Position numbers and translations under genes: made by a program
Part shown: positions 4,974 through 25,667 of the stretch, piece after piece
How positions within the stretch are numbered: position 1 is the stretch's first letter
Layout of the letters: each line of letters starts with the position of its first letter
NCBI GenBank assembly: GCA_020029535.1
Contig: JAIBJM010000004.1
Span: 1-64,000 of the forward strand
Length of the DNA stretch: 64,000 nt
Direction: 5' to 3'
Origin: Gammaproteobacteria bacterium
GTDB lineage: Bacteria; Pseudomonadota; Gammaproteobacteria; Steroidobacterales; Steroidobacteraceae
Notes under the pieces: generated by a model
The model's input: the letters and a program-made list of their open reading frames with translations, nothing else
What the model was told of the DNA's origin: nothing
Database searches by the model: none

Positions 4974-5927
4974 CTACTGCCTGTGCTTTCTAGAATGACG
5001 CGCGCGTCCTATCTTTTTGCGCGACTGACTTTGGCCCTTTGCTGAGGTCGGCGACGGTGAAACCACCGACGGCGGGATCATCAGCCGATGCGACCACCGC
5101 GCGGCTGCGACTCCCCAGGCCAGCGGAAGTCCGAATAGAATGAGATTGCACAGTGTACGGGCAGGCATCAGTCCTACTGCATGATTCCCGTACGCCAGCA
5201 ACGCAATGCCGATCACGATGCCCGTCGCGGCACGCGGTTCGAGCTGCTGATCATCGAAGCGAGAGACCACCAGATTGAGATAGCCGGTCCAGCGCTTCTT
5301 GAACCCACCCCATTGTTCGCCCTTACGGGGGATCGGCAGCAACTCATACAGGTATACCGCATGCACGCCGATGTAGGCACCTGCCATCCCATCAATAAGT
5401 GCGAAGCGATAATCGAGAGAGTTGGCCTTTCCAGCGCTGATGAGAGACAGATCCGAGCCCGCAAATTGCAGCACTCCTATAGCGACGACCGCGAGAAGGA
5501 ACCAAGCATATATTCCTAGCTTCAGAAGATATGGCAACGCGCGCGGGGCCATAAGAAGCAGAAGTACAATCGCTCCAATTCCCAAGCACACATACGTTGC
5601 AGAGGATTCCCAGGCGCCCACCTCAACAGTGACCCACAACAGGATCGCACTCCACATCAGGATCGCTCCCTCACCGAGTCGTGGTAGAAGGCGTTCCTGG
5701 AAAAGCATGGCGAACATGAACGTGAAGAGCCCACACAAAAGGAGCCCGTCTTCGCCACTCACAACTTTGTTGTCGGTATCTGTCTGTACAAGAACAATAA
5801 GAGGAATCGCAGCACTGCCCAAATACCGTGCCCAATCCCATCGTTGGAAAGGCAGCACCATGTACGAGAGTTGCAGGAACATTCCACCGATCAAGCAGAT
5901 CCAAACGATGTTTGAATTTCCAGTCAT
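4974..5927 (-). CDS. Hypothetical multi-pass membrane protein
   Basis: A 317-residue protein with about eight or nine hydrophobic segments (for example IVWICLIGGMFLQLSYMVLP, LCGLFTFMFAMLF, AILMWSAILLWVTV and YVCLGIGAIVLLLLM) and a basic, serine-rich C-terminal tail (SQSRKKIGRARHSRKHRQ). I recognise no family. Base composition is clearly more AT-rich than the surrounding genes and resembles the ietS/ietA genes that follow, so it may belong to the same acquired block. Function not assigned. Confidence 0.7.
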   Translation of the reverse strand: MTGNSNIVWICLIGGMFLQLSYMVLPFQRWDWARYLGSAAIPLIVLVQTDTDNKVVSGEDGLLLCGLFTFMFAMLFQERLLPRLGEGAILMWSAILLWVTVEVGAWESSATYVCLGIGAIVLLLLMAPRALPYLLKLGIYAWFLLAVVAIGVLQFAGSDLSLISAGKANSLDYRFALIDGMAGAYIGVHAVYLYELLPIPRKGEQWGGFKKRWTGYLNLVVSRFDDQQLEPRAATGIVIGIALLAYGNHAVGLMPARTLCNLILFGLPLAWGVAAARWSHRLMIPPSVVSPSPTSAKGQSQSRKKIGRARHSRKHRQ

Positions 5928-6483: not shown

Positions 6484-8979
6484 TCACACCGTCACCGTCA
6501 CCTTCTGCTTGATGGCTGTCGCAACGGGGGCATAGAGGTCAACATCTCGCGCGCTGGTTTCAATCGAAACGACCAGGGAATATCGAATGGTCTCATTGTA
6601 TTTGTCGTGGCTTAGTTGTTCCCGCCACCAACCGAGAGTCGGATAAATAGCAATGCCGCCACGCGCCGCCAAATCGGTAGCCGATCCGCGCCAAATATCC
6701 GTGTGGATAGACCCGCGATGCCGCAGTTGTGGTCCGATGATCCAGCCGTGATCTTGAGCATCTACAACCTGGCCCTCCTCCTCCGCGCGAGCAAAGTCCG
6801 AGATGCGCATTCTAAACGCCGCTTCACTTTCCAACGCCTTCTTCACGGCAAACCGTAGACCATGCGACTCATAACGATATCGACGAATGCGACCACGCTC
6901 CGATGGATTGGGCTCAATGAAATACGAGAGCGTCACGCGCATTTCGACCTCTGATGCGCCTAGGCTCTCAAGCTGCGCAGTTGGCCAAGGCAGCGAATAC
7001 AGATGCACATCACGGGACCGGGCCCGCTCAACTCGACCAGTGCCACTCCTTGCGAGCACTCCTTCGAATGGTTGTAGCTCCTGCTGGGAAATCAGTGTCA
7101 GCGCGTTGCCCGCGCTCCAGAGCGCACGCCGCTCCGAAGGAAGCCCATACCCGCAGTGCCTAAGCAAATTCTCGATGTCACGCTTGCGCGATGCTGTCGG
7201 CGCGAACTGGCGAATCATAGGGTCAGTCCATCGCGCGGAATGCACAAGCAAACCACGCACAGTCTCGGGCCAATATTTTGGATAGTTAGCCTTGATTGCA
7301 GCTGCCATGCGTGACCCGAGCGCTACCGCCGCGCTCGTCCCCCACATCGAATCGAACGGGCGAACGGCAGGTCGATGATCGACGGTGAGCAAATCTAAAG
7401 ACCTAAGGGAGTCCGTTTCGCCGTTGGGGGCCAACGCTCGATTGCCTCCTTCGAAGACGACGTCCGGTTTAATCGGCCAAGCTCTTTCCCAGCCAACGGA
7501 AGAGCAGCTGTAGGGACTCAAGCCGCCAATTGGCGCAAGCGGCTTGAATCCCGGGTATTCACGCTGGTCGATCTCTCCCTTGAAAGTCACGGCACCAACG
7601 GTCAGCGCGTTCCACGACTGAGCCGGGTCGTGAATGTTATCGACCGCATTCACAGCCGGGTAGTCCGCCTGGTCGATCTCTTCGACATTGCCGGCAGCGA
7701 GAACTACCAAACGATGTTCGGCGTCCTCCGCGCCCGATGTCAAACGATCGATGGCGGCCGACCAAGCCGAGGGTCTGCCTCGAAGGCGATCTCTCTTTGA
7801 TCCGACCGCGAGACAAAACAGCCTATCCGCGCGCGGCTTCGTCACCGCGGGTCGGGCCATCGCTTCGCGCGTCAGTGCCCCAAGGAGTTCACCAACGTTG
7901 TCCCCGTTCTGGCGCAATACCTTCACGGACTCAAGACGGTGCGTTAGCGCGACGAGTCCAGCAGTCTCAAATACTTCACAGAGATCTCCATATAGTGCGA
8001 GTCCACCCATTTGGGTTCCATGTCCGAAAGTGTCATCCGGTCTCCACGCGGGATTCACAGTATGGCAATCCGCTGCGTCAAGCGCCGGCGACAGCAGCGG
8101 GTGTGCGCTAATACCAGTGTCGATAACGCAGACAACGGGCGCATCTGGCTCGGGAGGCCGCACGCGTCTCAGTAACTCGTCCGTCAGCGTCCATTGGGTG
8201 GGGGCGGGCAATCCAACGACCAAGTCAGCTGTCTCTTTCAGCCTACGAAGTTCGGCAATGCAATTCAGGAGGGTAATCGAGCGCGTCAACTGCTCCCGAT
8301 TTCCACGTACAGCGAGAACGGTACGGTCAGGAAAGCGTTCCTCGGTCCTCGAAAGTATTAAACCAAGCGCTTCCGCATGACCGCGAAACTGCGCGCGCAA
8401 GCCCTCTCGGTCGTCACCGACGCGAAGCCAAACCTCCCACCAGATAATTTCATCGTCTCGGCTCGGCAGCAATAATGGATCATCAGTCCACAAGGACCTT
8501 AGCGCAGCGCGCCTAATACTACGGATGTTGGCGATCAATTCGTTGTTACGCGGCGTGCGTCGGTTCTTCCTTTCATTGATGTTGTCTTTGGTCAGATAGT
8601 CTTGAACAAGTCGTTCGAGCTTCGCTAAGGCGCCTTCTGGAACGAACACGGTAGCGAGCGTGCGTTTGCCTTCTTTGTGTAGTGAGAGCAGCTCAATGCC
8701 ATCAGACGCCCGATCGAGGCTTTCCGCTTTTAGGTCGAATCCCGGTTCGCTCTCTATTACGAGATACATGCCATCGGGCAGGTCTTCAGCGAATTCGCGC
8801 CGCTCTTCGACGAGCCGTGCCGCGACAGGGGATAAGCGTTGAATTTGAGCAAGGATCGCGTTTCCATGCCTTTGTCGTTGGCGCTGCTTAATCTTCGGAA
8901 GTTCGCGCGGTGACTGTCGCGCTCGAAAACGGTCGGCGTCACGAAAGGCATCGATGCTCAGGTGTTTGAGATCAGCCAA
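6484..8979 (-). CDS. ietS: IetS-like subtilisin family (S8) serine protease
   Basis: An 831-residue protein without signal peptide, so cytoplasmic. An N-terminal region of about 270 residues has no recognised catalytic motif. The S8 peptidase domain follows, with the triad Asp287 (VCVIDTGISAHP), His320 (FGHGTQMGG) and Ser549 (MWGTSAAVA); the oxyanion Asn is likely in LAAGN. A C-terminal beta-rich region (about 640–831) completes it. A large intracellular subtilase directly behind a AAA ATPase is the IetA–IetS arrangement, known as an addiction/incompatibility pair on Agrobacterium Ti plasmids and as an anti-phage system. It starts 17 bases after the ATPase stop. Composition is less GC-rich than the core genes. 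Homology by name is inferred from architecture. Confidence 0.85.
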   Translation of the reverse strand: MADLKHLSIDAFRDADRFRARQSPRELPKIKQRQRQRHGNAILAQIQRLSPVAARLVEERREFAEDLPDGMYLVIESEPGFDLKAESLDRASDGIELLSLHKEGKRTLATVFVPEGALAKLERLVQDYLTKDNINERKNRRTPRNNELIANIRSIRRAALRSLWTDDPLLLPSRDDEIIWWEVWLRVGDDREGLRAQFRGHAEALGLILSRTEERFPDRTVLAVRGNREQLTRSITLLNCIAELRRLKETADLVVGLPAPTQWTLTDELLRRVRPPEPDAPVVCVIDTGISAHPLLSPALDAADCHTVNPAWRPDDTFGHGTQMGGLALYGDLCEVFETAGLVALTHRLESVKVLRQNGDNVGELLGALTREAMARPAVTKPRADRLFCLAVGSKRDRLRGRPSAWSAAIDRLTSGAEDAEHRLVVLAAGNVEEIDQADYPAVNAVDNIHDPAQSWNALTVGAVTFKGEIDQREYPGFKPLAPIGGLSPYSCSSVGWERAWPIKPDVVFEGGNRALAPNGETDSLRSLDLLTVDHRPAVRPFDSMWGTSAAVALGSRMAAAIKANYPKYWPETVRGLLVHSARWTDPMIRQFAPTASRKRDIENLLRHCGYGLPSERRALWSAGNALTLISQQELQPFEGVLARSGTGRVERARSRDVHLYSLPWPTAQLESLGASEVEMRVTLSYFIEPNPSERGRIRRYRYESHGLRFAVKKALESEAAFRMRISDFARAEEEGQVVDAQDHGWIIGPQLRHRGSIHTDIWRGSATDLAARGGIAIYPTLGWWREQLSHDKYNETIRYSLVVSIETSARDVDLYAPVATAIKQKVTVTV

Positions 8980-10410: not shown

Positions 10411-15915
<5,505 letters not shown>

Positions 15916-20396: not shown

Positions 20397-21791
20397 CTAG
20401 TCGCTGAATGACTCGGCGAGGCGGTCAATCAGCCGTCCGAGCTTGGAACCGCGTGGCGACTTGTCGGCTTCCAGGCGCAGATGCCGTACACCGGAATCAT
20501 TGAGCAGCTCGCCGCGGCCGTTGTCGATCTGCAGTTCGCCGGCGCCGAGAATTTCCAGCGTTTCTTCCAGAGACATTTCGCGCTTCGACTTTGCGGCGCC
20601 CGGCTTCTTCGCCACGCCGGCACGTACCTTGACGCGCTTGCCCGGTGGCGGCTTGCCCGCCGTCGCAGGCCTGGCTGCGACGGCGGGCGGCGGCAAGCTG
20701 CGGGGCTTGTCATCGATCAGCTTGAACTGACCGCTGTTGTCGGGCTTGGCAGCGACCGGGGCCGGTGCCGCGGCAGCCGCTTTCTGCGCGGCTGTCAGCG
20801 CGCGTTCACGCTCGCGCACCGTGACTGGCACCACCGATACGCTGGCAAACTCCGAGCGCACATATTGCGCAACCTGCTTGGCCGATGTGGCATCGGTGAA
20901 AAAGCCCAGCCGCAATCCATACCAGCGACGACCATCGCGGTTGCCCTCAGCGCCATACAGCGTGTATGCGCTGAAGATGGCCAGCTGTGGAATCCCGCTC
21001 ATGACAATGGGCTGCACCGACCACACCAGTTGCAGCGCGTACATGGTCAGCTCACTGCGCGGCTTGATCGCCGCTGCAGGTTTCGCCACCGCAGGCTTCG
21101 CTGGCGCGGCGGGCTCCAGCACCTTCAGCACCTGTGCGCCGGTCAGTAGCGGTTTCGATGCCGGCCCGGGCTGGACTGCCTTGATGGCCTTGCGTTCGGC
21201 GGTGACATCCAGCGCGGCGATGGCCGCGCGCACGCTGCTCAGCGACTGGGCAGCGCCCATCTGATCGCTGGCCTGATCATTGACCGCAGGCTTCTGCACT
21301 GTTGCCGGTTTCTCGGCAACTACCGCAGCGGCGGGCTGTATCGTCGGCGGCGCCGGCATATCGATACTGGCTGCCGTCACCGGATGCAGCTGCAAGGTCC
21401 GCGGTTTTTCCGGCGCCACCGCAGCGGGCAGTACCGCTGCCGGTGCCGGTGCCGGCCGTGCTGCAGCCTGCGCACGCAGCTTCTGTCCTGGCGCAACACC
21501 GGCCCAGGCCGCCGGATAGACTTCGCGCACCAGCTCGAGCAATCGTTCGGCTTCTTCCTGCGTGCTGAAGTAGCCCATGTGCAGGCGGAATCGTTCGCGT
21601 CCATCTTCGCGACGACGCGAAACAAAAAACTTGAAGCGCTTCAGCTCGGGATGCGTTGACTGCGGCAGCGGAACCGGCGTTGTCGACGACGCCAGATTGA
21701 TGACAAAGCCATTGTCGGTAATGCCAACCAGAGATTCCGCGACTGCCAGTGCCGACTGGTTACCTGAGAACTGAATGGCTTGCTGCATCAT
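20397..21791 (-). CDS. SPOR-like repeat protein, putatively under c-di-GMP riboswitch control
   Basis: A 464-residue protein starting at ATG 21791 (AGAGGAAG lies about nine bases upstream). There are two related SPOR-like modules: residues about 27–105 (FKFFVSRRREDGRERF, then HMGYFSTQEEAERLL) and about 255–335 (NRDGRRWYGLRLGFFTDATS). A long Ala/Pro/Lys-rich linker lies between them. The C-terminus (about 410–464) has EETLEILGAGELQIDNG. No signal peptide or membrane segment is seen, unusual for SPOR proteins, which normally bind denuded peptidoglycan in the periplasm. A c-di-GMP-I aptamer precedes it on the same strand, so expression should respond to c-di-GMP. It is monocistronic: the next gene is convergent. 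Confidence 0.8.
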   Translation of the reverse strand: MMQQAIQFSGNQSALAVAESLVGITDNGFVINLASSTTPVPLPQSTHPELKRFKFFVSRRREDGRERFRLHMGYFSTQEEAERLLELVREVYPAAWAGVAPGQKLRAQAAARPAPAPAAVLPAAVAPEKPRTLQLHPVTAASIDMPAPPTIQPAAAVVAEKPATVQKPAVNDQASDQMGAAQSLSSVRAAIAALDVTAERKAIKAVQPGPASKPLLTGAQVLKVLEPAAPAKPAVAKPAAAIKPRSELTMYALQLVWSVQPIVMSGIPQLAIFSAYTLYGAEGNRDGRRWYGLRLGFFTDATSAKQVAQYVRSEFASVSVVPVTVRERERALTAAQKAAAAAPAPVAAKPDNSGQFKLIDDKPRSLPPPAVAARPATAGKPPPGKRVKVRAGVAKKPGAAKSKREMSLEETLEILGAGELQIDNGRGELLNDSGVRHLRLEADKSPRGSKLGRLIDRLAESFSD

Positions 21792-21800
21792 GGACACCCG

Positions 21801-21816
21801 CTTCCTCTGAAAGAAG
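21801..21816 (-). promoter_or_regulatory. Hairpin covering the SPOR gene ribosome-binding site
   Basis: On the minus strand CTTCTT-TCAG-AGGAAG can form six pairs (one T-G wobble). Its 3' arm is the Shine-Dalgarno sequence itself, nine bases upstream of ATG 21791. It lies between the c-di-GMP aptamer and the start codon, a plausible expression platform acting on translation initiation. Confidence 0.5.
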
Positions 21817-21869
21817 CTCCGGCGCCCGGCCAGCGAATGGGGAAGACACGGCAAGACGCCCACTCGTCC

Positions 21870-21946
21870 TGCTATGGCAACCCCGCTATCCCCTGACGGG
21901 ACCGGAGGCTTTGCGTCCCTGCCTTGCAGCAGGTTTGCCGTTAGAT
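21870..21946 (-). promoter_or_regulatory. Cyclic di-GMP-I (GEMM-I) riboswitch aptamer
   Basis: The minus strand carries the near-invariant GEMM-I core: GGCAAACC, then GGGACGCAAAGCCTCCGG (21919–21902), then TAGCGGGGTTGCC ending at 21876. The first stem-loop is CCTGCT-GCAA-GGCAGG, a six-pair stem capped by a GNRA tetraloop as in the V. cholerae Vc2 aptamer. The second arm can form TCCC/GGGA. GGCAA (21939–21935) and TTGCC (21880–21876) can close the junction. The leader runs into the SPOR-like gene 80 bases downstream, with a hairpin over its ribosome-binding site. A GGDEF/EAL gene ends about 105 bases upstream on the same strand. Confidence 0.93.
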
Positions 21947-22050
21947 CACGTGACGCAGTGTGGCAGTGTGACGAAGGGCGTCAAGGGTGCGGACAGAGAG
22001 CCAGTTCACGACTGGCGAAGAATGTTGTGGTGCGTCACAGTTTGGGTCGA

Positions 22051-24864
22051 TCAGCCGGCCTCGCGCAGCGCTGTACCAGGCATCGGGTGGCGTGCCATCA
22101 GCAATTCGGTGGTCTCGATAACGTTGCGGGGATGGGCCAGGTAGAAGCCCTGCGCCATGTCGCACTGGCGCTCGCGCAGGAACTCCATCTGCTCCATGGT
22201 TTCGACGCCCTCGGCGACCACCTGCTTGCCGAGCGCATGCGCCATCACGATGATGGTTTCAGCCAGCGTTGCCGCGGTCACGCTGTGTGGCACTTCCTCG
22301 ATGAACGAGCGATCGATCTTGATCACCTGCACCGGATGCTGGCGCAGATAGCCCAGCGACGAATAGCCGGTGCCGAAGTCATCCAGTGACAGGCGCACAC
22401 CCAGCGCCGACAGCCGGCGCAGCGACAGACGTGCTTCATCGTCGGCGAACACCGATTCGGTCAGTTCGATCTCCAGCATCTCGGGTGGCACATTGACCCG
22501 GTCCAGCGCGCGCCGCACGATCTTGGAAAATTCCGTCTGCCGCAACTGATGCACCGAGACATTCAGCGCCAGCCGTTGTGGCGCGATGCCCTGTTCGCGC
22601 CAGATGGCGAGCTGGTTGCATGCGGTTTCCAGCACCCAGGCGCCGATGTCGACGATCAGGCCGCTCTGCTCGGCGGCGGGTATGAACTGACCGGGACTGC
22701 GCAGCGCTTCGCGCGGCGGCTGCCAGCGCAGCAATGCCTCGAGTCCGACCAGACTGCCATCGCTCAACGAATACTGCGGCTGGTAGTACAGCGAAAATTC
22801 ACGGCGGCGCAATGCGCGGAACAATCCGCTCTCGGCCACCGGTGTGCCTGACTTCTCCATGCTGCGCTCATAGAACACTGCGCGGCCGCGGCCACCTTCC
22901 TTGGCCCGATACATGGCGAGGTCGGCATTGCGCATCAGGTCTTCAATGGAGTTGCCATCATCGGGGAACAGCGTGGCGCCGATGCTGGCGCGCACGTAGT
23001 GGTCGCGTCCGCCGACATTGACCGGATGCTGCAGCGACTCGGTGATGCGCGTCGCCACCTGCCGCACCGAATCCGCGCCGCTGATGCCGCGCAGGATCAC
23101 GGTGAATTCGTCGCCAGCCAGCCGTGCCACCGTGTCGCCATCCTTGACGCAGGCGCGCAGCCGCTGCGCGGCGATCTGCAGCAGCTGATCGCCGGCGGCA
23201 TGGCCAACACTGTCGTTGACCTTCTTGAAGTGATCGAGATCCACATACAGCAGGGCGCCACGCTGCAGACCAGCCGCCGCGCTGGCCAGTTCCTGCGACA
23301 GCCGGTCGCGGAACAGCAGGCGGTTCGGCAGCGAAGTCAGCGCATCGAAATGCGCCTGCCGGTACAACGCCTCATCGCGCTGGCTCTTCGACAGTGCCGC
23401 ACCCAGCCGCGTGGCGCACTCGGTGCCGTATGCAGCCAGCTCAGGCGGCACGGATGGCACGCCCAGATAGCCCACCGACAGAATCGCCGCGACGCGATCC
23501 TGCACCAGCACCGGCCACACCCAGAAAAACTCGGCGCCCAGTGCCCGCAGCGGATCGAGGAAACTGTGCCGGTGCGGTTCGCAGCGGGTGACGGTCAGAC
23601 CCTGGCGCTGCTCCTGCAGGTCTTTCAGCAGTTCGGTATCCACGCTGATGCGGCTGACCGGCAGCTCGACGCCGTTGGTTGCTGACACATAGGTGCGCGC
23701 GTGATCGGAAGCATCGGGATCCATCAGCGCCAGTGCCGCACCATGGCAGCCGGTGATTCTGCAAATGCGCGCCAGCACCGGATCGAGCGCCTGTTCCAGC
23801 TCGCTCGACTCGAGCAGCAGGCGATCGATTTCATTGAGACTGCCCAGCGCCTGCATGCGGCTCTGCAGCTGCCCAACGGTGCGATTGAATGCGATCGCCA
23901 GTTCGCGCGGCATATCACGCGACCGCGCCAGGGCTACGCGCCGGTAGCGACCTTCGCCCAGTTCTCCCAGCGCCTCCTGCAGCTCACCCAGCACCGGCTG
24001 CCAGCCACGCGTCAGATACCGCGTGCCCAGCACCAGCAGCGCCGCGGCCAGCAGCAGCAGGGCCGGCAATGCCTTCAGCAGCACAACCAGACTTCCAGCG
24101 TCCGCAGCATTTGCGTAGCCCACCACCAACCAGTTGACGCTGCCGAGGCGGCGGCTGTCGGTCTTCAGCCGCGACACAGCGCCCAGCCATTCGGCGCCGT
24201 CAACAGTCCAGCCGCGAACGGACGGAGCCGCCACCAGTTGCGCCAGCTGATGTTCGCGACGGAACAGTGCCTGCAGTTCACCGGATACTTCCGAAGTGGC
24301 CTGCAATACATTGCCATCGCCATCCAGCACGGCCACCGATGCATCGGCGCGCACCGGCGCGATGCCCTGCCAGAACCATTCAGAAGACAGCTCGAACCAG
24401 GCGGCATTGCCACCGGGGAGCGAACGGATCATGTACAGCTCGCGGCTGCGCGCTTTGCTGTCCGCGGCGCGCAGCAACAGCTGACCATCCGACAATGCCG
24501 AGCGATCGGCAGCGGTCAGCGCCGCCGGCAGGCGTGCGCCGGCAGGCGGAATACCGGTTGGATAGATCAGCACCTCGCGGATGCCCGGTGAACGCAGAGC
24601 GCGTTGACGCAGCGTGCCACCCTCATCGGCAGCCACTGAATTCTGCACGATGGCTTCGACGGCCATCAGGCGGGCATTCAGGTTCGCGGTGACGGCACTG
24701 CTCAGCTCGACGACGCGCGCATTGGTGGCACGCCCCAGCTCCTCATCGACGATGCCAGCCGTGATCCACGCCGTGGCGCCGCACATCAACGCCAGAGCGA
24801 GGGCCAACACCAGACACAGCCGGTTGGCCATTGATTTCGACGGCAAGATTTCGTCCAGACGCAT
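22051..24864 (-). CDS. Membrane GAF-GGDEF-EAL c-di-GMP signalling protein
   Basis: 937 residues from ATG 24864 (a further ATG at 24831 is possible). Transmembrane segment at about 15–37, an extracytoplasmic sensor at about 38–255, a second transmembrane segment at about 258–284, a HAMP-like linker, GAF (about 345–490), GGDEF (about 500–660) and EAL (about 680–920). The GGDEF signature is AGDEF at 583–587, compatible with diguanylate cyclase activity; the RxxD inhibitory site is KDGD. The EAL motif (EALLRW, 709–711) and DDFGTGYSSL are intact, compatible with phosphodiesterase activity. Net activity cannot be decided. The next gene downstream on this strand carries a c-di-GMP-I riboswitch leader. 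Confidence 0.93.
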   Translation of the reverse strand: MRLDEILPSKSMANRLCLVLALALALMCGATAWITAGIVDEELGRATNARVVELSSAVTANLNARLMAVEAIVQNSVAADEGGTLRQRALRSPGIREVLIYPTGIPPAGARLPAALTAADRSALSDGQLLLRAADSKARSRELYMIRSLPGGNAAWFELSSEWFWQGIAPVRADASVAVLDGDGNVLQATSEVSGELQALFRREHQLAQLVAAPSVRGWTVDGAEWLGAVSRLKTDSRRLGSVNWLVVGYANAADAGSLVVLLKALPALLLLAAALLVLGTRYLTRGWQPVLGELQEALGELGEGRYRRVALARSRDMPRELAIAFNRTVGQLQSRMQALGSLNEIDRLLLESSELEQALDPVLARICRITGCHGAALALMDPDASDHARTYVSATNGVELPVSRISVDTELLKDLQEQRQGLTVTRCEPHRHSFLDPLRALGAEFFWVWPVLVQDRVAAILSVGYLGVPSVPPELAAYGTECATRLGAALSKSQRDEALYRQAHFDALTSLPNRLLFRDRLSQELASAAAGLQRGALLYVDLDHFKKVNDSVGHAAGDQLLQIAAQRLRACVKDGDTVARLAGDEFTVILRGISGADSVRQVATRITESLQHPVNVGGRDHYVRASIGATLFPDDGNSIEDLMRNADLAMYRAKEGGRGRAVFYERSMEKSGTPVAESGLFRALRRREFSLYYQPQYSLSDGSLVGLEALLRWQPPREALRSPGQFIPAAEQSGLIVDIGAWVLETACNQLAIWREQGIAPQRLALNVSVHQLRQTEFSKIVRRALDRVNVPPEMLEIELTESVFADDEARLSLRRLSALGVRLSLDDFGTGYSSLGYLRQHPVQVIKIDRSFIEEVPHSVTAATLAETIIVMAHALGKQVVAEGVETMEQMEFLRERQCDMAQGFYLAHPRNVIETTELLMARHPMPGTALREAG

Positions 24865-24974
24865 TTCATCAATGCCCGGTCCAGGGAAGGTCAATTTAAC
24901 GATTGTCGGCGCCACTGCTGTGCAGTGGATCACCCTATTGCCAGAACTTCCGGCTATCAGCTCACAATCGGCGG

Positions 24975-25667
24975 TCACACCCGGACCGCAGCGCTGCCGC
25001 GCCGCTGCGTCAGTTTCTGCATGCCGCCCCAGGTGTAGCGCTGCACGCCGGCGCGCGCGGTCATCGCCGCCGCGTACATGGCTGCCGCCAGCGTCGTGGC
25101 CGGTATGCTGCGCCAGCGCTGCGCGCTTCCCTGCAGCAGCGGACCGATCGCGGTCAACGCCAGCGCCGCGAGCTTTTCCACCGGCCGGAACTCGCGCCGT
25201 GGGCCGCGGATGACGCAGGGCTGCATGATGTGCAGTGACCGGAACTGCAACGTTGCGAGCGCCGCTTCCATGCCGCCCTTGACGCGCAGGTAGGGGTAGC
25301 GGCTTTCCGGGTTGGCATCCACTGAAGAAATCACGATGAACTGTTGTGCGCCGGCCTGCCGGGCCACGCGCGCAAAGTGCAGCACCAGATCGTGATCGAC
25401 AGCCTGATGGCCCGCCCCGCCGGACTGCCGCTGCGTGGTGCCTATGCAGCAGTAGGCGTCATCGCAACGCATGCCGCGCAGCTCGGTATCCATCGCTTCA
25501 AAGCGCAGGATGCGATTGGCCAGTCGTGGATGATCGATCGACAGCGGCCGCCGCGACAGCGCAAGGACCCGCGCATACCCCGGGCCAGCCAGCAGTTTGC
25601 GCAGCAGCTCACCGCCCACCATGCCGCTGCCGCCGATGACCCAGGCGGTCTTTGCTTCTTCTGCCAT
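24975..25667 (-). CDS. NAD(P)-binding Rossmann oxidoreductase, HTATIP2-like
   Basis: A 230-residue extended/atypical short-chain dehydrogenase-type protein. The N-terminal GGSGMVGGELLRKLLAG is the dinucleotide-binding loop. FIVISSVDAN and YPYLRVKGGMEAAL hold the Y-x3-K-like active-site region seen in NAD(P)H-binding HTATIP2-like proteins, and QPCVIRGPRREFRP completes the fold. Substrate unknown. It starts 10 bases after the radical SAM stop, so probably the same transcript. Confidence 0.85.
   Translation of the reverse strand: MAEEAKTAWVIGGSGMVGGELLRKLLAGPGYARVLALSRRPLSIDHPRLANRILRFEAMDTELRGMRCDDAYCCIGTTQRQSGGAGHQAVDHDLVLHFARVARQAGAQQFIVISSVDANPESRYPYLRVKGGMEAALATLQFRSLHIMQPCVIRGPRREFRPVEKLAALALTAIGPLLQGSAQRWRSIPATTLAAAMYAAAMTARAGVQRYTWGGMQKLTQRRGSAAVRV

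Follow-up and report, generated by a model that had tools for sequence, protein, structure and literature searches.

The gene for an uncharacterised double-SPOR protein is a new and conserved target of a known riboswitch class, the c-di-GMP-I (GEMM-I) riboswitches, and does not represent a new kind of system. The riboswitch lies on the minus strand of the window, by which we mean the whole 64 kb stretch of DNA analysed here. Our preferred explanation, to which we give a probability of about 0.7, is a c-di-GMP-I switch on its own transcript that would turn translation of the SPOR gene off, with the SPOR gene forming part of an envelope-rich regulon. What is new is which gene is targeted and how deeply this is conserved; the idea of an envelope output is not new. 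Among the papers searched, none joins SPOR, GEMM, riboswitch and c-di-GMP, and none joins c-di-GMP, riboswitch and peptidase M23.

A canonical c-di-GMP-I aptamer in the window

A cmscan of the window against all of Rfam gave a single match at gathering level, at 21948–21872 on the minus strand (E = 1.3e-11). On RF01051 (c-di-GMP-I), whose gathering score is 35, the element reached 66.5 bits, hence the covariance model bears out the c-di-GMP-I riboswitch that an earlier sequence-only reading had claimed on this strand. The GEMM-I core, GNRA-capped stem and 3' segment named in that reading are all present, and its element stands, with only the position (given as 21870–21946) being off by two bases from the 21872–21948 found here. 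The sequence features within the element are GGGACGCAAAGCCTCCGG, the stem CCTGCT-GCAA-GGCAGG and TAGCGGGGTTGCC. The stem corresponds to P2 with its GCAA (GNRA) tetraloop (21933–21918, minus strand) and is backed by sequence, consensus structure and covariation in relatives. The P1 closing helix is very short, comprising approximately three pairs with mismatches marked in the cmscan alignment. A weak P1 is common to near relatives, in which the aptamer core also survives.

The element also scored 59.9 bits on RF03167 (c-di-GMP-I-GGC), just above the cut-off of 59, and its overall architecture is like that of this family. RF03167 ranked ahead of RF01051 by E-value whereas RF01051 was ahead by bit score, and the “GGC” label of the aptamer reflects this near-tie of two models. 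The name presumably denotes G20/G47/C92 of the RF03167 family. Where the RF03167 consensus reads ACGCGAA, with a G, the window reads ACGCAAA and retains A47. Filing the RNA as c-di-GMP-I-GGC was ruled out, as the marking G at the A47 position is absent and the RF01051 bit score is higher. As A47 is kept, G20, A47 and C92 were all found in a check of the binding pocket, and RF01051 gives more bits, the element was filed as a canonical c-di-GMP class I aptamer, a sequence-based assignment from which ligand binding is predicted. G20, A47 and C92 are the ligand-contacting residues in Vc2 (PMC4744006; PMC9049102). Compared with Vc1 and Vc2 of Vibrio cholerae, the type examples of RF01051, the element shares the common core, P2 with a GNRA loop, P3, the three pocket residues and a 5' leader position. 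It differs in its soluble double-SPOR target, its very short P1 and the predicted ribosome-site sequestor in its leader.

The aptamer is linked to the SPOR gene in relatives

To assess linkage, the region of each SPOR orthologue was taken from the genomes of relatives and scanned with Rfam for an upstream aptamer on the same strand. Of 57 orthologue loci that could be tested, the window included, 51 have an aptamer ahead of the SPOR gene. In the first set, linkage was seen at 19/20 loci and at 11/15 testable loci (L090, which is truncated, was left out), with three of the losses falling in one genus, g10 (L083, L088, L089). A further 20 orthologues, fetched afterwards and held out as a test, showed the aptamer in 19 cases. 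It is also found upstream of the SPOR gene in L034, from the MAG “Proteobacteria bacterium isolate Jr-25may17-45”. The linkage is too deep for a chance neighbourhood. In the searches made, the aptamer-SPOR branch was essentially limited to one bacterial family. Among SPOR paralogues, one of four possessed its own c-di-GMP-I aptamer (L104 1897–1984, G008:C8, upstream of a 376 aa protein), the other three (L101–L103) did not.

The position equivalent to G20 differs in four SPOR-leader aptamers, being A in L093 (2276–2364) and L094 (3134–3222), T in L081 (1123–1206) and C in L092 (2044–2127). Besides the window, A47 was present in all SPOR leaders checked.

A conserved promoter would place the aptamer at the start of its own transcript

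A promoter conserved among relatives lies upstream of the aptamer at 21957–21984 on the minus strand, with a −35 element TTGACG (21984–21979), a spacer of 16 bases and a −10 element CACACT (21962–21957). The pattern in relatives, CTTGAC followed after 16–17 bases by a −10 of the form [CGA]A[ACG]ACT, was derived from the first locus set and then applied to the held-out loci. It fits 23 of 32 loci of the first set, where 0.025 would be expected in shuffled sequences, and all 19 of the held-out loci. A generic sigma-70 scan returned no promoter, its 9-of-12 rule being stricter than the TTGACG/CACACT pair. The transcript is predicted from sequence to start at ~21950, just 5' of the aptamer, with the gene start 80–83 nt downstream of it, which gives the aptamer a 5' leader position. 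Given the conserved promoter at 21984–21957, transcription is unlikely to begin only beyond the aptamer or downstream of 21870. The shared strand, own promoter and conserved linkage together support the view that the riboswitch belongs to the SPOR gene.

Approximately 25 bases upstream of the −35 element, most relatives carry a conserved TGAGA/TGTGA element, partly palindromic in some of them, and the window has GTGAA at ~22010 (minus strand). This element is possibly an activator site.

The upstream neighbour on the same strand is a GAF-GGDEF-EAL gene (22051–24978, minus strand), in which Pfam detected all three domains. It encodes 975 aa as the longest open reading frame, its true start may be further in, and its end at 22051 lies 102 bases before the aptamer, close to the ~105 bases of the sequence-only reading. 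Most of the close relatives, as well as L034, have a related gene ahead of the aptamer. With the predicted start just 5' of the aptamer, the upstream enzyme gene would not be needed for transcription of the aptamer. In L034 the GGDEF-EAL gene is separated from the aptamer by an NlpC/P60 peptidase gene (5119–5646, plus strand). By sequence reading, a double-length UvrA-like ATPase gene (>1800 aa) is also located near the SPOR locus, at 10411–15915 (plus strand) in the window and at 7492–12978 in L034.

The target is a soluble double-SPOR protein

The downstream gene occupies 20397–21791 on the minus strand and encodes 464 aa with a start at 21791, or 463 aa with the start at 21788 that homology indicates. 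The window protein matches Pfam SPOR (PF05036) in two stretches with 26.7 bits against a cut-off of 21. Among 22 orthologues the match is weak by sequence, with 17 reaching E ≤ 0.01. Their alignment shows a shared layout of two SPOR domains, each followed by a linker (the first Ala/Pro-rich), with a conserved tail at the C terminus (LEETLEILGA...RLLDRLxER). AlphaFold modelled the second domain (86 residues, pLDDT 79) with the beta-alpha-beta-beta-alpha-beta order of a SPOR domain, and Foldseek matched this model to the SPOR domains of CwlC and RlpA with a probability of 1.00 and to DamX with 0.99, the E-values being weak (best 5e-3). The model of the whole protein was uninformative (pLDDT 36.7, two sequences). 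Profile searches with the family found no match in NCBIfam or, by sequence, in the PDB.

SPOR proteins are wall-binding division and lytic proteins. Export or membrane anchoring to reach the peptidoglycan is typical of the characterised members, and is not part of the Pfam definition. Simple hydropathy detected no signal peptide or convincing membrane segment in any of the 22 orthologues, in which hydrophobic stretches sit in the Ala-rich linkers or within domains. The protein thus resembles CwlC, RlpA, DamX and FtsN (PF05036) in the predicted fold of its second domain and the sequence match of its first, but differs from them in having two SPOR domains, long Ala/Pro linkers and a conserved tail, and in being soluble with neither signal peptide nor anchor. 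The sequence-only reading had described a SPOR-like protein of this kind, and the Pfam score and clean hydropathy agree with it. Its further remark that the effector is undescribed also holds, the protein family being uncharacterised and having no NCBIfam model. Other SPOR proteins of relatives (L109–L112) are 800–1070 residues long and by eye appear to consist of a signal peptide, SPOR, TPR and an outer-membrane barrel.

The leader points to probable control of translation

No convincing terminator was found in the leader, where the only terminator-like site on the strand (21833–21819) has a poor tail, and such sites were no commoner in the region than in shuffled sequences. Transcription attenuation was ruled out on both counts. 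As the leader is without a convincing terminator and the start codon is ~80 nt away, control is probably exerted on translation. A sequestor hairpin (AGAGGAAGCGGG, 21792–21827, minus strand) is predicted over the ribosome-binding region with a folding energy of −18.3 kcal/mol. In the unconstrained fold of the window leader, CUCCGG of the aptamer (21907–21902) pairs with CCGGAG (21822–21817) inside this hairpin. In close relatives, a CCCC element between the aptamer and the gene complements either GCGGGG of the aptamer or GGGG of the Shine-Dalgarno. Directly 3' of the aptamer, a short hairpin (GGACG/CGTCT, 21854–21869, minus strand) has weak support. It recurs at the same place with different sequences in most of eight close relatives, and is absent from the minimum free energy fold.

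When the aptamer core was enforced in 26 leaders, predicted accessibility of the ribosome site fell in 14 and rose in one, with the mean changing from 0.31 to 0.21, p-values in this test being optimistic owing to related sequences and a crude choice of Shine-Dalgarno. The corresponding values in a shuffled-linker control were 0.35 and 0.33. In the window leader accessibility went from 0.28 to 0.17, a small predicted effect. Beyond the aptamer, the fold of the window leader is no more stable than that of shuffled sequences (z = −0.53), and the corresponding leaders of close relatives were too diverse in alignment for a covariation test. Folding weakly suggests translational repression by c-di-GMP, the OFF direction having no more than moderate confidence, also in view of the very short P1.

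In the mechanism that we propose, the class I riboswitch forms the 5' end of its own transcript, and the step on which it most likely acts is translation of the double-SPOR protein. Binding of c-di-GMP would fold the aptamer and free a C-rich or GC-rich segment of the 70–110 nt leader, which could then pair with the Shine-Dalgarno region, and translation would fall, making this an OFF switch. When c-di-GMP is absent, aptamer strands (GCGGGG or CUCCGG) would instead pair with the C-rich or GC-rich segment and the ribosome site would open.

Envelope genes are usual outputs of the riboswitch

The genome contains three c-di-GMP-I aptamers, including that of the SPOR leader. The second (L001 1501–1587, G000:C63:22428–22514, minus strand) precedes the gene of an M23 peptidase by ~27 bases; this gene is situated between secA and lpxC (both neighbours named by eye). 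This aptamer-M23 linkage was found in 15 of 30 orthologous M23 loci, including those of other families of the order. The third (L003 1501–1586, G000:C51:23777–23862, minus strand) is upstream of a gene for a 133-aa Fn3 lipoprotein. Other aptamers of relatives precede Ig/cadherin-like and Ig/Fn3-repeat lipoproteins, M23 peptidases and redoxins.

GEMM is the acronym of Genes for the Environment, Membranes and Motility. In this bacterium and in relatives the riboswitch usually has envelope proteins as its output, to which the SPOR gene adds a new branch. The sequence-only reading had proposed a direct c-di-GMP to envelope output and regarded such a target as atypical for GEMM-I. The parallel aptamers on the M23 peptidase, the Fn3 lipoprotein and the envelope genes of relatives partly support the former, but count against the latter, envelope genes being ordinary outputs of the class. 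The riboswitch would be part of an envelope-rich c-di-GMP regulon in this order, with the SPOR protein as a family-specific branch. A cell-envelope output for the SPOR gene itself is what we infer, as a cytoplasmic SPOR protein could not reach the peptidoglycan unless exported. Among known systems, the c-di-GMP-controlled envelope genes of Clostridioides difficile likewise have riboswitches upstream of surface-protein genes (PMC6200980). Adhesins and surface proteins are the targets there (PMC6200980); in the present case the targets are a SPOR protein and, alongside it, an M23 peptidase.

Alternative readings of the aptamer and its target

Two alternatives concern the aptamer itself. It could sense another cyclic dinucleotide (3',3'-cGAMP) or be a “GGC” variant of altered specificity, as the E-value ranking of RF03167 might suggest, and as might the A at position 20 in two SPOR leaders of genus g17 (L093, L094), a pocket substitution of the sort described for c-AMP-GMP variants (PMC9481103). 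We regard this as very improbable for the window, where the pocket is G20, A47 and C92, the RF03167 consensus has G at A47, RF01051 gives the higher bit score and the other SPOR leaders checked share A47; in the relatives with A20 aptamers the ligand may have shifted. It is also improbable, if slightly less so, that the window species carries a degenerate or decoy aptamer, an RNA that forms but is left with no regulatory function by its poor P1. The P1 of about three pairs with mismatches and a platform no more stable than shuffled sequences are in keeping with such decay, but conservation extends to the core, the pocket, the promoter and the spacing from the gene, and near relatives combine a weak P1 with a surviving core.

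The other two alternatives accept the riboswitch and concern its sign and its target. Class I c-di-GMP switches of both signs exist, and enforcing the aptamer left accessibility unchanged or raised it in some leaders (L076, L073), so that c-di-GMP might open the ribosome site and turn the SPOR gene on. The 14 falls against one rise in the folding test argue against this reading, as does the C-rich element complementary to both aptamer GCGGGG and Shine-Dalgarno GGGG in close relatives, which is OFF wiring, and we consider an ON switch unlikely. A stronger competitor is a real riboswitch controlling a protein unrelated to peptidoglycan, in which SPOR-like folds serve as a cytoplasmic scaffold or an RNA- or protein-binding module. 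The clean hydropathy of the 22 orthologues and the weak SPOR profile match fit this, but the nearest structural matches are glycan-binding SPOR domains, an NlpC/P60 gene adjoins the locus in L034 and an M23 peptidase is a parallel riboswitch target. We place the scaffold a little short of even odds and about as likely as an envelope role.

Implications for c-di-GMP signalling and the cell wall

As the pairing of riboswitch and SPOR gene is conserved throughout a bacterial family, a common bacterial signal, c-di-GMP, probably controls an uncharacterised double-SPOR protein directly. A family-wide circuit can be imagined, with the odds against it as a whole, in which one riboswitch sets the dose of the cytoplasmic double-SPOR protein and couples c-di-GMP to wall growth or division from inside, parallel to a riboswitch-controlled M23 peptidase outside, while some genera (those with A20 aptamers) have moved to another cyclic dinucleotide. 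If this circuit is true, the SPOR fold would be used inside the cell. To judge from the parallel riboswitch on the M23 peptidase, the order may have a broader regulon linking c-di-GMP to peptidoglycan. A conserved riboswitch before a SPOR gene makes it possible to test whether c-di-GMP is linked directly to wall biology. That many genera have kept the regulation of this uncharacterised protein family strongly hints that the dose of the protein matters in the choice between motile and sessile life.
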